Of a DNA stretch of 26,365 nt, positions 2,734 through 12,652 are shown piece by piece. The notes under the pieces were generated by a model. It did no database searches and had not been told where the DNA came from. It saw only the letters and a program-made list of their open reading frames with translations. The DNA comes from a virus: the IMG/VR virus record IMGVR_UViG_3300030382_000915, positions 1-26,365 of that record, one strand, 5' to 3'. Position 1 is the first letter of the stretch; each line of letters opens with the position of its first letter. The position numbers and the translations under genes are program-made.

Positions 2734-3447
2734 TTATTGAGCGGTGTCAAGGAACTGCCCCTTGCCCTCACCAATGGTATTAGTGTGTATCTCTCTTGAT
2801 ACTTCCACCGCATAAAAGTCTTTTTTGTATTTATTATTTAAAATATATAAAAATCTTCTTTGTTTAAAATTTCCTTTTATATGTTTTATTCCGGGATAAA
2901 TTTTCGAAACTACGGACCATTTTCTAGTTTTATGTCTGTGCCACATTGATACAGGGTGAATCCTCTCGCCGTTTTTTAACAAATAAAAATCAACAGGAAC
3001 ACTTGGAATTTCAATTGCGTTAGTTGCTTTATAAATAATACCTTTATTACCAACTGATTCATCTGCATAAGTAATAATAAATTTTATCCTAGAATGTGCT
3101 TGTTTTATAAAACTAATTAACAAAGAGATCACTTGGCTTTCGCTATTTTTAGGTAGATCATCACTTAGCCACATCCTGTCAAATTCACAATAATTGTCTT
3201 TTGTAATTAACTTACTTATTGTGTGTTTCATTCTAGGTCTTATTCCATAACCTAGTTGCAAAAAACCTTTGTTTTTATTTACAAAAAAACTCAAAAATCT
3301 ATTTTTTGTATTTTTTTTACTGTAATGATATTTTTTTACCCATTCATCAACTTCTTTATTTGGTGCAACTTTTAAACAAAAACTATTGCTTTTAATACCA
3401 ACTATTTCTTTATCAAATAAATTTTTATTATAAATTAACTTTTTCAT
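2734..3447 (-). CDS. Mom-like DNA modification protein (GNAT-fold adenine modifier)
   Basis: This 237-aa protein carries the signature blocks of the phage Mu Mom-like family. They are an early HYSKK block (41-45), FDRMWLSDDLPKNSES (89-104) and ITYADESVGNKGIIYKATN (126-143), then a C-terminal block containing KNGERIHP and a basic KQRRFLYIL segment (195-203). Mu Mom converts DNA adenines to a methylcarbamoyl form and so protects the genome from many restriction enzymes. By family, this protein should modify phage DNA in the cytoplasm. The ATG at 3447 overlaps the NinG-like gene by 20 nt. I see no com-like regulator next to it, unlike in Mu. The presence of nucleases on both sides is discussed as a finding. 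The modification chemistry is inferred from the family, not visible in the sequence. Confidence 0.75.
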   Translation of the reverse strand: MKKLIYNKNLFDKEIVGIKSNSFCLKVAPNKEVDEWVKKYHYSKKNTKNRFLSFFVNKNKGFLQLGYGIRPRMKHTISKLITKDNYCEFDRMWLSDDLPKNSESQVISLLISFIKQAHSRIKFIITYADESVGNKGIIYKATNAIEIPSVPVDFYLLKNGERIHPVSMWHRHKTRKWSVVSKIYPGIKHIKGNFKQRRFLYILNNKYKKDFYAVEVSREIHTNTIGEGKGQFLDTAQ

Positions 3448-3920: not shown

Positions 3921-4717
3921 TATGCAATTGCCCTGTTAATCTGTATTTCTTCTAGTGGCTTTAAATGTTCGTGACATTCTGGACATACCGCACTTACACC
4001 TTTACTTACTTCCCTTTGTCCGTGACCAGAAGGACAAGCAATAATAATTGTACTTGATTTAGATTTACCGGCTTTAGTTGAGTTTGGTCGGTCTTTATAC
4101 CATTCTTGTCTGCAACAGTTTTTAAATGCTGAAGCATAATTTGAATATCTTTTATCTTTAGAATCTAAATAATCAACAAACGAATCATAATACCATTTAA
4201 TATTTAAGTGTGGATATTCTTTTGAATAATTAGGCAAGTTTGCCTTGATTTCTTCTAATTGCTCTTTTTTGCCTTTTTTCTTATTGTCTTTATCCTTATC
4301 CTTATCCATATCCATATCCATATCCAGAACAGTTAAATGAGTTGATTTAACAGTTGGGCAACTGTTGGGCAACTGTTGGTTTTCCACATTTAATCCATAC
4401 TTTGTTAATAACTTTATTACAGATTTGTGTGCATTTACTTTTTCATTTAGTTCGCCATACTGATATTCAATGAATTTAGGTAAGAACCACTTACCATCTT
4501 TAAATGGCACAATCTTACGATTAAAGGTTTTTAATATAGTTTGTTCATCAAGCTTTACACCAAGCTGAAATGCTGCACGTTCAATATCTACTTCCCATAT
4601 TCCGGCGTGGTCACAATCTGTTAATAAATATACCCAAAACAACTTCATATTTGGACTAAGTTGTCTAATCCAACGCTTCCGAAAAAGTCCTGTATCGATG
4701 AAACGTTTAGCCACCAA
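3920..4717 (-). CDS. Phage replication protein with winged-helix N-terminus and C-terminal zinc ribbon
   Basis: This 265-aa protein opens with the pattern typical of phage replisome-organiser proteins. KRWIRQLSPNMKLFWVYLL (14-32), DHAGIWEVD (36-44) and FLPKFIEYQYGEL (78-90) together indicate a winged-helix DNA-binding domain. A low-complexity acidic/basic linker (131-151) follows, made of DM and DK dipeptides encoded by a hexanucleotide repeat. Next is a DnaD-like helical part with KWYYDSFVDYLDSKDKRYSNYASAF (174-198), and finally a Cys/His cluster (C228, H232, C245, C248) that should bind zinc. It probably binds the origin and recruits a host or phage helicase. The start is TTG 4717 or GTG 4714; the latter gives MAKRF and is equally likely. 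No helicase gene is visible in the window. Confidence 0.7.
   Translation of the reverse strand: MVAKRFIDTGLFRKRWIRQLSPNMKLFWVYLLTDCDHAGIWEVDIERAAFQLGVKLDEQTILKTFNRKIVPFKDGKWFLPKFIEYQYGELNEKVNAHKSVIKLLTKYGLNVENQQLPNSCPTVKSTHLTVLDMDMDMDKDKDKDNKKKGKKEQLEEIKANLPNYSKEYPHLNIKWYYDSFVDYLDSKDKRYSNYASAFKNCCRQEWYKDRPNSTKAGKSKSSTIIIACPSGHGQREVSKGVSAVCPECHEHLKPLEEIQINRAIA
4288..4326 (-). repeat. Hexanucleotide tandem repeat in the replication gene linker
   Basis: On the plus strand, TTATCC units turn into CATATC units, about six hexamers in a row. On the coding strand this is GATATG/GATAAG, translated as alternating Asp-Met and Asp-Lys. Hexamer slippage keeps the frame, so linker length can vary between genomes without breaking the gene. 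Confidence 0.85.
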
Positions 4718-4775
4718 CTGATCCGTGCTGTATAACGGCTCTTACAAACTGAAAAAGCATATACCAACCAAACAC
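4707..4775 (-). CDS. Possible 22-aa membrane peptide
   Basis: A GTG at 4775, directly after the TAA of the 88-aa gene (TAAAGTG), opens 22 codons (MFGWYMLFQFVRAVIQHGSVGG). Its TAA at 4707 overlaps the start of the replication gene. The peptide is hydrophobic with one Arg. Its main effect may be translational coupling between its neighbours. A longer in-frame version exists upstream but would lie wholly over the 88-aa gene, so I do not use it. Confidence 0.25.
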   Translation of the reverse strand: MFGWYMLFQFVRAVIQHGSVGG

Positions 4776-4776
4776 T

Positions 4777-5043
4777 TTACATACTGTCAATATTATCTTG
4801 TCCAATTGGCTGTCCTGTTTGTGGGTGTATTTGCGGTAATTCATCCTTAACCTCCTCTTTCTTATGTTCGTTAATGGTCCAATTTCTGGCTTCATAGTGT
4901 CTATAAGTTTTTTGGAACTCGCCCTCTGGATCACGTGCTTGTAATTGAGATATAATAAGAACCATTGGTTCTTGTTTGTCTGGTGGGTAAAAATAAAATG
5001 TTCTGTAAGTCGTTGGCTTGGTTTCTTGACTTGTGGAATCCAT
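4777..5043 (-). CDS. Hypothetical protein, 88 aa
   Basis: This polar protein (MDSTSQETKPTTYRTFYFYPP...) has a central beta-like strand (EPMVLIISQLQARDPEGEF), and its C-terminal third is rich in Gln, Pro and acidic residues and probably disordered. It has no cysteines and no membrane segment. The ATG at 5043 directly follows the TAA of the upstream gene, with an AGAGG ribosome-binding site inside that gene's end. Its position between an annealing protein and a replication initiator suggests a DNA-metabolism accessory. No family is recognised. Confidence 0.6.
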   Translation of the reverse strand: MDSTSQETKPTTYRTFYFYPPDKQEPMVLIISQLQARDPEGEFQKTYRHYEARNWTINEHKKEEVKDELPQIHPQTGQPIGQDNIDSM

Positions 5044-6472: not shown

Positions 6473-6706
6473 TTAATTAACAGGCTCATTTTGTATATGT
6501 GATAAAACTTGGTCCTCAATGTTGTATAATCTATTTCTAACTCGTTCTACAATTGAATAATTTCCGTGTTTTCTTAAATTAGACTGTCTTGTAGCATCAA
6601 CTTCTGGAAAATGATGTTTAATATTCATTTCTTCACATTCTAATAAATTTTTAACATCTTCTAAACAGTCTACAACTTGTTTTAAAGTAAATTCGTTTAT
6701 TTTCAT
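6473..6706 (-). CDS. Hypothetical protein, 77 aa, first gene of the early unit
   Basis: I start it at ATG 6706, 25 nt downstream of the structured RNA, with AAAGAG upstream. The product (MKINEFTLKQVVDCLEDVKN...) is helical and acidic at the front, with HHFPEVDATRQSNLRKHGNY in the middle and a charged helical end. No family is recognised. The frame stays open upstream to 6829, but that stretch is the inverted-repeat RNA and encodes an unlikely sequence; the upstream ATG at 6823 would make the mRNA leaderless. Being promoter-proximal, it may act very early in infection. Confidence 0.55.
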   Translation of the reverse strand: MKINEFTLKQVVDCLEDVKNLLECEEMNIKHHFPEVDATRQSNLRKHGNYSIVERVRNRLYNIEDQVLSHIQNEPVN

Positions 6707-6730
6707 TTTATTACTCTTTGTTAAATGATT

Positions 6731-6823
6731 ACCGGGACAAAAATTGGTGCTTAAACCGACCACAGACGTAAGTCCATTGTGGGTATGTCCCGGTGAATTA
6801 TTTGATTTAATCGGTTTAAGCAT
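6731..6823 (-). ncRNA. Structured RNA with pseudoknot topology at the predicted transcript start
   Basis: Two perfect inverted repeats interleave. The 12-bp pair TGCTTAAACCGA/TCGGTTTAAGCA occupies 6748-6759 and 6811-6822. The 9-bp pair ACCGGGACA/TGTCCCGGT occupies 6731-6739 and 6787-6795. The order along the RNA is stem1-5', stem2-5', stem1-3', stem2-3', which is an H-type pseudoknot arrangement. Between the two inner strands lies a third hairpin, CCACA/TGTGG with an inner GAC/GTC pair closing TTAC (about 6760-6783). The 5' edge matches the start site predicted from the -10 box at 6829-6834. It could be a 5'-UTR switch, a ribozyme or a stable small RNA. I do not recognise it as a specific known class. 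Confidence 0.55.
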
Positions 6824-6828
6824 ACCCA

Positions 6829-6858
6829 AGTATAACGATGCGGATATATTAAATGCAA
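6829..6858 (-). promoter_or_regulatory. Predicted sigma70-like promoter for the early unit
   Basis: On the minus strand, TTGCAT (6853-6858) and TATACT (6829-6834) are 18 bp apart. The -10 box matches the consensus at five of six bases; the -35 box is weaker. The expected start is near 6821-6823, exactly where the structured RNA begins. The site follows the late terminator by about 60 bp, in a very AT-rich stretch. Confidence 0.5.
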
Positions 6859-6920: not shown

Positions 6921-6955
6921 AAAAAAGCCTCATATCGCTTGAATATAAGGCTTTT
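6921..6955 (-). terminator. Intrinsic terminator ending the late operon
   Basis: On the minus strand, AAAAGCCTTATAT pairs with ATATGAGGCTTTT around a 7-nt loop (TCAAGCG), with one G-U pair, and runs into a six-T stretch at 6921-6926. It lies 23 nt past the stop codon of the last late gene (6978). The plus strand has only four T residues after the stem, so it mainly stops minus-strand transcription. Confidence 0.85.
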
Positions 6956-7303: not shown

Positions 7304-7681
7304 TTATTTTCCTCGTGAATACCATTGGATAGATTTTTTTACGTCATCCGTAGTTAGTTCAAGTTTACCATCAAAATTTGCCTTCCAAACTTTTACTTTT
7401 TTACCATCCTTAAATAAGACTACACTAGGAAAGTTTCTCAATCTTAATTTTCTTACAGTTTCCGGTACGTTTTTACTTGGCAGTATAGTCATTATTGTCC
7501 CATAGTAAGCACTATCGCCATCCACAATAAACTTACCTTGATAAAAGTTTTGTTTACTATCTTCTGACCATTCAGCCGTAAACCTTACTAGGTGCATACC
7601 TTTGTATATTGCTCCGTAAAAATTTGAGTCTGTAACCTTCTGCTGACTAAAAACTAGAGATAATAATAATAATAATCTCAT
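7304..7681 (-). CDS. Secreted thioredoxin-fold protein lacking both active-site cysteines
   Basis: The N-terminus MRLLLLLSLVFSQQ looks like a short signal peptide. The body follows thioredoxin order: VTDSNFYGAIYKG, then LVRFTAEWSEDS (31-42), then LRNFPSVVLFKDGKKVKVW (81-99) with P85 in the cis-proline position, and a final helix. The segment AEWSEDS lines up with the classic AEWCGPC, so both redox cysteines are serines (S39 and S42). The protein has no cysteine at all, so it cannot act as a disulfide oxidoreductase. It may be a binding or chaperone module in the periplasm, like the redox-dead domains of the PDI family. The ATG at 7681 overlaps the upstream stop (ATGA). It sits in a row of membrane protein genes. 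Confidence 0.65.
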   Translation of the reverse strand: MRLLLLLSLVFSQQKVTDSNFYGAIYKGMHLVRFTAEWSEDSKQNFYQGKFIVDGDSAYYGTIMTILPSKNVPETVRKLRLRNFPSVVLFKDGKKVKVWKANFDGKLELTTDDVKKSIQWYSRGK

Positions 7682-10171: not shown

Positions 10172-12652
10172 TTATGATACCTTTATTGCTTTAATTTGAC
10201 AGCCTGTGATTGATTTACCTATACTTGCTACAATAAAATATCCAGACATTGCAGCACCATATATTTCAACTTGACTGTCCCAATTGCTAAAATCTATTAT
10301 GTCACCAATTTCAAGGTGATTGTACTTTGGTCTAATACAATTAAATTCAATTACATCTTTTCTGCTTTTCATTATATTTATATATGCTTCAGCTAGTTTA
10401 GTTGCAGTTGTTGAATCAAGTATTTCATTTGCATCAATTTGAAATTCCATAGTTTGATTAAAGCCATTAACTGTTGTGCCTTGTGAAGTTGAATCTGTTG
10501 CAGTAGCTTCCGATAAATTTTGATTTGCTCCGTAACTATGATTGTATTTAACTAATACAGAATTTTTTACAGCACTTAATGAAGTCTTACCTACTTTATT
10601 TAATTCAACATCAGAATAATCAACTGTTTGATCTGAAGATGAATAGTCATCGGTTCTTCTTAATGTTCTTATTTTAAATTTTCCATCACTACTTAAAAAA
10701 ACATAAGAAAAACAAAGCTTTGCCAATCTATCAATTAAGTCTTTTGAGTTAATAAATTTATATTGTGAAAATGCAAATTTGACATCACTAACAGCATCTT
10801 CATATATATCGCCAAGTAATCCAGAGCTTGTATCGCCAGAAGCATCAAAAAGTTCATAATCAATTTGCGATGAAGTTAATCCACTTACAATATAGCCTTC
10901 TCCACTTGCCATAATGTTGGCACTAATACTTAATGTTGTTGCACTATCTCTAGCAGTAACCATTGCACTTGTTTTGTCTTTAATGTTATAAACAGTTTGA
11001 CCTACAACTGAAGTTGCAAACGAAGCATTAGAATCAACTAACTTATTTGAAGTTGTACTTGTACCAGAGCCGGTGTATATAGGACCTAATTCAGATCGCA
11101 GAATACTTTCTATAATAAATATAGGGTTTTCAATTACTGCGTTTACTGCATAACCTTGATCTCTTGAATCAGCATCAATATATGCTCCATACTGACGACC
11201 TTTACCAGAGCAATAAATATAGTCTAGTTTATTTGGTGTTAATAAATTAACAGTCCTAGAAAGCGTTACAGTTTCTTCAATTTTTTCAGATTCAGTTTCA
11301 AATTGTGTTGTGACACCATATCCGCCTGTATATGTTTTTTCAAAAAATTCTTCTATACTATGAGAATCAATGCTTTCAATATTAAAATCAATAACCACTC
11401 CTGTTTCTTCTATTTGTACAGACTCGTTTGTATTACCGGTAAATAGCTTGAAGCTTATATTCTTTTCAAAATCAAAAGACTCTTCTTGTGCAGCCGTGAA
11501 CATTCCTTCAATATTATATTTAACTTCTGAATCACTTGTTATAGAAGGTAAAGTTACTACACCCGCTAATTGAAAAAAGTCATCTACTGTATCAGTTAAA
11601 CTTGTAACTGTACCCCACTTTACTAATGAAGAAATTCCTGTATAATCACCTAGCTTATTCACTTTTGGAATTGCATAACTTATTGATGCACGAGAATCAG
11701 CAGTAGTTGCACCATTTGCTGCAATAGCTGTTAAAGTTGAAAAGCTTCCATCAACTGCATTGAGCGGATTTGTTACACTACCAGAATTTGTAATTGTACC
11801 ACTACCTTGACCAGAAGAACTTAAAGGTATAAAAACACTTGCAGTACCACCAGAAAATTCCATAACAGGATTGTTTGTTGTTGCATCACAAGTTCCGGTA
11901 AATGTTGGGTAATATCCATCTTTGTAAAAATATAAGTTTTCACTATCTAATGTATTTAGAGCTTGGCTGTCTGGCTTTGCTTCTGAAGCAGATTCACCAA
12001 CGTCCCACTTGTCAGTAATAATTGCCGGAAAAGCACCTTTGTAAAAATTTGAATACCTATCAAAATGCGAAGTTGGTATTGTCCCTATGTCTGTTTTTTC
12101 ATAAAAGTCACCATAAGACAAAGGAATGGGTTTGCCGATATTATTGCTTGGAGCATTGGGATAATTTGTTGAATCAACTATATTTGCGGGTATTCTTTTA
12201 TGAAGTATTGAAGAATTATCAAGCAATGTTAATGTAAAATTATTTTGGTCATAAGATACTTCACCAGAAATTACACCAACACCAATTCTTCTTGCTGCTG
12301 TGTCCAATGTTGTAGTGTTGTTTGTATTAAGAAACAATTCCCATTTACGATTAGCAAAATTATTACTAGCAATTAAATCTGAAAACCTACCGCCTTTTAT
12401 AGACTTAGCAGTATTTATTAGATTAACATTCATATTGCCAATTGATGTACTAAAATTAAAAAAGTCTAATGATTGCGTATATGTTCCAAAACTTGCAACA
12501 ATACCATAATATATATCTGTGCCGTCTTGTCTATGTCTATCACTTACACCAATAAAATCAGATTCGTCATTATAATATAATTTAAGAACCCAAAACGCAG
12601 TAGTATTTGCACTAGCTAGTCCACTCGTTAAAGCTGTATCAAAGGTTAGCAA
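10172..12652 (-). CDS. Large tail tip / baseplate hub-like protein, 826 aa
   Basis: The gene starts at TTG 12652, immediately after the TAA of the tape measure gene (TAATTG). It is the longest gene in the window. The N-terminal 200 residues (FWVLKLYYNDESDFIGVS..., SLDFFNFSTSIGNMNVNLIN) are followed by long Ser/Thr/Asn-rich beta regions. A C-terminal part (FKIRTLRRTDDY, NSVLVKYNHSYG, HLEIGDIIDFSNWDSQVEIY) resembles hub proteins that close a siphovirus tail tip. Its place directly after the tape measure is that of the distal-tail/tail-associated protein group. No enzymatic domain is evident. The exact subunit identity is uncertain. Confidence 0.65.
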   Translation of the reverse strand: MLTFDTALTSGLASANTTAFWVLKLYYNDESDFIGVSDRHRQDGTDIYYGIVASFGTYTQSLDFFNFSTSIGNMNVNLINTAKSIKGGRFSDLIASNNFANRKWELFLNTNNTTTLDTAARRIGVGVISGEVSYDQNNFTLTLLDNSSILHKRIPANIVDSTNYPNAPSNNIGKPIPLSYGDFYEKTDIGTIPTSHFDRYSNFYKGAFPAIITDKWDVGESASEAKPDSQALNTLDSENLYFYKDGYYPTFTGTCDATTNNPVMEFSGGTASVFIPLSSSGQGSGTITNSGSVTNPLNAVDGSFSTLTAIAANGATTADSRASISYAIPKVNKLGDYTGISSLVKWGTVTSLTDTVDDFFQLAGVVTLPSITSDSEVKYNIEGMFTAAQEESFDFEKNISFKLFTGNTNESVQIEETGVVIDFNIESIDSHSIEEFFEKTYTGGYGVTTQFETESEKIEETVTLSRTVNLLTPNKLDYIYCSGKGRQYGAYIDADSRDQGYAVNAVIENPIFIIESILRSELGPIYTGSGTSTTSNKLVDSNASFATSVVGQTVYNIKDKTSAMVTARDSATTLSISANIMASGEGYIVSGLTSSQIDYELFDASGDTSSGLLGDIYEDAVSDVKFAFSQYKFINSKDLIDRLAKLCFSYVFLSSDGKFKIRTLRRTDDYSSSDQTVDYSDVELNKVGKTSLSAVKNSVLVKYNHSYGANQNLSEATATDSTSQGTTVNGFNQTMEFQIDANEILDSTTATKLAEAYINIMKSRKDVIEFNCIRPKYNHLEIGDIIDFSNWDSQVEIYGAAMSGYFIVASIGKSITGCQIKAIKVS

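Follow-up and report, generated by a model that had tools for sequence, protein, structure and literature searches.

A predicted pseudoknot leader RNA ahead of exchangeable first genes in phage early operons

Two inverted repeats lie interleaved on the minus strand of a viral sequence (IMG/VR virus record IMGVR_UViG_3300030382_000915, positions 1 to 26,365; this whole stretch of 26,365 nucleotides is called the window), shortly ahead of the first gene of a predicted early operon. The question raised by this locus is whether these repeats serve as DNA, as coding sequence or as a folded RNA and, if the last, what the RNA would do for the gene behind it. A preliminary description had read them as a pseudoknotted RNA at a transcript start, possibly a riboswitch-like leader, a ribozyme or a stable small RNA. 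The parts of the locus are listed below in the order in which the minus strand would be transcribed.

6923-6955, minus strand: terminator-like hairpin after the upstream (late/lysis) operon, a 14-pair stem followed by a T-rich tail
6829-6834, minus strand: TATACT, -10 box of the predicted early promoter; almost every distinct element has a TAnnnT hexamer 5-6 nt ahead of its AUG
6821-6823, minus strand: AUG, predicted 5' end of the transcript, present in all relatives; stem A begins with its G
6811-6821, minus strand: 5' strand of stem A, GCUUAAACCGA; 165 of 165 cells paired in 15 cores, four positions changed on both sides
6795-6810, minus strand: A-rich linker of 16 nt between stems A and B, constant in length in the relatives, with a few invariant A and U
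6786-6794, minus strand: 5' strand of stem B, ACCGGGACA; 131 of 135 cells paired, double changes at six of nine positions
6763-6776, minus strand: hairpin P3 (6776-6772 with 6767-6763, loop 6771-6768); 73 of 75 cells paired, double changes at four of five positions
6749-6759, minus strand: 3' strand of stem A (A'), UCGGUUUAAGC, from the covariation alignment
6740-6748, minus strand: linker of 9 nt between A' and B', holding most of a T-run that is not conserved
6731-6739, minus strand: 3' strand of stem B (B'), UGUCCCGGU, from the covariation alignment
6714-6719, minus strand: Shine-Dalgarno site of the first gene, AAAGAG (AAGAGG in relatives)
6473-6706, minus strand: first gene of the early operon, encoding 77 aa; no family match, and unrelated genes in its place in relatives

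From 6823 to 6731 the minus strand reads 5'-AUGCUUAAACCGAUUAAAUCAAAUAAUUCACCGGGACAUACCCACAAUGGACUUACGUCUGUGGUCGGUUUAAGCACCAAUUUUUGUCCCGGU-3'. Stem A is formed by 6821-6811 with 6759-6749 (12 bp if 6822/6748 is counted) and stem B by 6794-6786 with 6739-6731 (9 nt), both with 100% match and in the interleaved order A-B-A'-B'. The two perfect repeats (12 and 9) of the preliminary description were therefore present at the places and in the order given there, and both stems covary in relatives. Folding energy of the minus strand, calculated without the pseudoknot, had z = -2.3 and was better than that of 199 of 200 shuffles. Judged from sequence comparison, the element is an H-type pseudoknot of ~90 nt (stem A 11-12 bp, stem B 9 bp) whose middle loop holds a small hairpin.

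Relatives were collected by pattern scans, a scan for the neighbouring spanin-like gene, nucleotide profiles and a structural scan. The same element was found in 23 further viral contigs, giving 24 contigs with 16 distinct cores, and each virus record examined held one copy at full model score. Among them was contig L001; a close relative of the 77-aa gene was encoded in no other viral contig. The structural scan was run on viral loci with tight spacing (~1.2 Mb, both strands counted), a wide-gap version being swamped by G+C-rich bacterial DNA; true elements scored 43-47 and five shuffled copies of the same DNA scored no higher than 41.5. A model trained without contigs L108 and L150 recovered L108 at E=2e-17 and L150 at 4e-7. 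When a search specified nothing beyond the AUG and a portion of stem A, 24 loci were returned and stem B was also present in 22 of them, which supports the second helix independently. Searches by DNA similarity against named phages and plasmids returned no relative, bacterial and archaeal genomes gave 87 pattern matches of which none had both stems of the element's sequence type, and the model had no match in 395 genomes of one phylum (Bacteroidota, according to the organism named for the starting locus; no positive control).

Compensatory changes were found in stems A and B, where the preliminary description had suggested that covariation be sought, and in P3 as well. Pairing in each stem was counted strand by strand over 15 cores, with the results listed above; the counts for stem A are partly conditioned, since the AUG/stem-A search fixed part of it. 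In alignment A5 (14 cores), 98.3% of cells were paired and nine pairs had changes on both sides. Contigs of the L201/L262/L266 group and of the L176/L265/L274 group have some of the changes by common descent, so the counts do not represent independent events. The covariation score of this alignment was 0.315 vs 0.138 in shuffles, with 0 of 500 shuffles reaching it, and pairing dropped to 25-45% when the structures were slid along the alignment. Stem B is CCGGGACA/UGUCCCGG in the window, CCGGCAC/GUGCCGG in L176, CCGAGGCA/UGCCUCGG in L108 and CGAGGGCA/UGCCCUCG in L150; stem A is GCUUAAACCGA/UCGGUUUAAGC in the window vs GGUUAGUACGA/UCGUGCUAACC in L150. L150 and L108 carry changes of their own, and neither was selected by stem sequence.

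Not every pairing noted earlier was kept in relatives. A CCACA/TGTGG hairpin, put forward as the third stem, is lost in L001, L150 and L201, and the hairpin kept by evolution is the 5-bp P3. The additional pairing GGGTATG/CATACCC does occur in the window (8 nt), but the alternative fold that it would form is lost in L004, L001, L176 and others; like the T5 run, which does follow A' in the window, it belongs only to the window's own sequence type.

In eight gap-free cores, 14 G-U pairs were counted against 0 A-C pairs, and A-C pairs were almost absent overall, which identifies the minus-strand transcript as the folded molecule. The plus-strand RNA, with its better nested energy and GNRA-like loop, was ruled out by this asymmetry. 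The same asymmetry bears on a reading in which the element works as DNA, be it an operator, a recombination hot spot or a cruciform. Such a reading would account for the inverted repeats and for the exchange of genes just behind them (window vs L005), but only one strand tolerates G-U pairs, relatives retain P3 as well as the pseudoknot order, and the spacing downstream of the -10 box is fixed; a DNA-level element is accordingly held to be highly improbable. That a structured, transcribed element exists here is, in our judgment, very nearly certain.

The start of the transcript was predicted from the promoter. In the window the TATACT box at 6834-6829 stands 5 nt before the AUG and the -35 region is weak; a TTGACA -35 is found at proper distance in L270 and L262. 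Promoter DNA upstream of the element varies among relatives while the spacing of the TAnnnT box to the AUG stays, and the AUG was kept also in 11 relatives found with a query lacking ATG. A hairpin similar to that at 6923-6955 precedes the element in L001, L006, L105, L106, L112, L176 and L201. The terminator-like hairpin upstream, together with TATACT at 5 nt from the AUG, predicts that a new transcript starts at stem A. This is where the preliminary description had set the start, at the 5' edge of the first stem, and the constant spacing of the box agrees with it; the predicted location at the head of the early operon likewise fits the box spacing and the gene order.

What follows the element bears on two further proposals of the preliminary description. 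Switching between termination and read-through had been suggested from the T-run after A', but this run varies (TTCGATTCTC, CTGATATAT and CCTATTTAT in relatives). A transcription attenuator would have a conserved hairpin with a T-run, and in most relatives the linker after A' contains no T-run, which makes an attenuator unlikely. The element is followed by a ribosome site rather than a terminator and is thus not a separate small RNA.

The conserved AUG also suggests that the region might code for protein, either as a leaderless upstream frame of 38 codons or as the N-terminus of the first gene. This AUG is present in every relative, its frame runs into the gene without indels in the window and L001 (116 aa) and reaches the first gene in several contigs, and 0 stops were found in the AUG frame of 14 gap-free cores against 3.1 expected (P about 0.03), a result that a leader RNA does not predict. 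Substitutions within the frame behave otherwise: in eight gap-free cores 12 of 48 distinct substitutions were synonymous vs 12.9 expected at random, with 14 cores the numbers were 22 and 21.0, and third codon positions were not more variable, the unpaired ones being, if anything, less so. Frame-shifting indels fall inside the element in L108 (loss of 1 nt) and L150 (2 nt removed and 2 nt inserted), one segment would have to head 14 unrelated proteins, and a Shine-Dalgarno site stands before the internal start and none before the AUG. No selection on a peptide is seen in the substitution pattern and the indels, and coding for protein is considered very unlikely; the upstream frame may be translated with the peptide sequence irrelevant. 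The narrower view suggested by the comparison with L001, that the region is merely the N-terminus of the 77-aa gene, was ruled out by the relatives with other genes and by the codon test. For the longer N-terminus that the preliminary description had named as a result against an RNA, the frame is open but codon-level selection is not seen.

Behind the element, the first genes of the 23 contigs fall into 14 families without mutual similarity. In 15 of these 23 contigs the first gene starts at +116 to +118 nt from the AUG, after the Shine-Dalgarno site and an A/U-rich stretch. In the window the start codon (6706) lies 24 nt beyond the end of stem B, which does not pair with the Shine-Dalgarno site. 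The ribosome site is further off in L005, L108/L276, the L265-type contigs and L274; as far as these positions can tell, close coupling of the element to translation is not universal. The cores of L005 and the window are identical, but their genes differ immediately beyond stem B. Since the element is retained through changes of the first gene, it is taken to act on the transcript and not for one gene, and on this comparative evidence it is uncoupled from any particular downstream gene. The first genes appear to be exchanged as cassettes (window 6706 onward; L005 4440-4480), identity stopping directly after stem B, and in L005 a TTTCACGTGAAA palindrome lies within the new junction.

The element proved to be absent from Rfam in the covariance scan that the preliminary description had recommended. 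At gathering thresholds Rfam 15 had no match in the window or in six relatives; at relaxed thresholds nothing covered the window element (best overlap E 9.4) and only chance-level matches were obtained elsewhere. The earlier suggestion of a ribozyme is not borne out, as no known ribozyme model matches. HDV-like ribozymes share the helix order P1-P2-P3-P1'-P2' in outline, but they have a short P1, a P4 and a catalytic C in J4/2, whereas stem A is 11-12 bp, there is no P4 and the 9-nt linker leaves no room for one; self-cleavage at the 5' end of the element is not indicated. SAM-II and other H-type pseudoknot riboswitches have the A-B-A'-B' order and the leader position in common with the element, which differs from them in its longer stems and in the lack of an Rfam match even at relaxed thresholds. 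A riboswitch would further be expected to share a downstream pathway or gene, and none is shared here. The preliminary description is supported in its pseudoknotted leader at a predicted start, outside Rfam. Passages on phages, pseudoknots and marine RNAs in a survey of 104 candidate RNAs name other cyanophage and marine motifs (PMC2864571). Within this limited part of the literature, the element is treated as a new RNA family of known kind, unusually uncoupled from its downstream gene.

From the alignments, the element is read as a new cis-acting pseudoknot leader RNA that heads the early operon. Early-operon transcription would start at or beside the conserved AUG (6823), so that the first nucleotides transcribed go into stem A, and the leader would fold as an H-type pseudoknot with a hairpin in the middle loop. 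The pseudoknot would most likely seal the 5' end against 5'-end-dependent decay and expose the next ribosome site in an open state, which would ensure steady early expression of whichever gene occupies the slot; the leader may be bound, and expression tuned, by a protein of the phage or of the host. This mechanism, in which the 5' end is protected and the ribosome site kept open, perhaps with a binding protein as at the T4 gene 32 pseudoknot, which serves its own gene (PMC535899), is proposed tentatively, as one that may well apply. A few loop nucleotides are conserved across relatives, and these could serve ligand or protein recognition. A broader reading, possible but doubtful, is that the element represents a new class of phage RNA, a gene-independent expression module in which a 5' pseudoknot accepts any early gene, protects or licenses the mRNA in a new way (or acts via RNA polymerase) and has accessory genes exchanged at its 3' border.

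A regulated switch was weighed against 5'-end protection. Here the pseudoknot would bind a specific protein or small molecule, and the bound form would block or open the adjacent ribosome site. The order of parts recalls the T4/RB69 gene 32 operator, in which a 5' pseudoknot is followed by an unstructured A/U-rich stretch with the ribosome site (PMC535899), and this arrangement was found here too. Some unpaired bases are invariant, and nested folds built from stem A alone and from stem B alone are similar in energy. The pseudoknot component of the T4 operator is ~28 nt, against ~90 nt with an inner hairpin here, and that operator is tied to gene 32 and fronts the gene of the phage's single-strand binding protein, whereas the present element stands at the transcript start before 14 unrelated first-gene families. 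With first genes differing among relatives, no autoregulated gene or pathway stands out; the loops are variable overall, and stem B ends well clear of the start codon without pairing with the Shine-Dalgarno site. A regulated switch is judged unlikely.

The put RNA of phage HK022 folds into two hairpins, with no pseudoknot. It is a cis-acting RNA of early phage transcripts that works as RNA alone and independently of the following gene (PMC9378689). If the element were put-like, the nascent leader would bind RNA polymerase and let it pass terminators of the early operon, and both the predicted place at the head of early transcripts and the independence from the downstream gene resemble put. The fold differs, however, and the window operon has only weak terminator-like sites. 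Antitermination of this type is quite unlikely, and less likely than 5'-end protection with an open ribosome site.

Structured phage leader RNAs are known from few model systems. The present element combines covariation in three helices, including a true pseudoknot, with a place outside Rfam, and is common to marine phages that swap the gene behind it. It would offer a compact module through which to see how early expression is ensured in phages that lack a cultured host, and accessory genes of unassigned function are exchanged at the slot it marks.

Another structured RNA, also conserved and apparently forming a three-way junction (AACCGCCUUGAGG...CCUCGCC..CCGA..UCGGUCAAGGCGGUU), was observed in early operons of relatives just before another ribosome site, at the following positions.

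L277, about 10963-11087, minus strand: second structured RNA
L262, 3278-3399: second structured RNA
L004, 6078-6201: second structured RNA
L150, 4363-4483: second structured RNA
L006, 1272-1402: second structured RNA
L112, 4364-4488: second structured RNA
L201, 1692-1818: second structured RNA
L265, about 4706-4780: second structured RNA

It had no match in Rfam and none within the window. In L265, L271-L273 and L274 a second structured RNA lies between the pseudoknot and the first gene.

Several other genes of the window were noted. At the far end of the early operon, 122-451 encodes a 109-aa protein with a weak match to a phage sigma-factor family (E 4.6e-5), a candidate for the switch to late transcription. 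A small protein at 573-836 has no family match; its final residues, DDLPF, recall the acidic tail found in single-strand DNA-binding proteins. Should the leader operate in the way of the T4 gene 32 operator, this protein would be a candidate partner. Adjoining the lysis genes, 7304-7681 encodes a small protein that is thioredoxin-like (Pfam E 5e-4, short of the curated cut-off) and has a hydrophobic N-terminus. A Mom-like DNA modification protein (E 5.6e-35) is encoded at 2734-3447.
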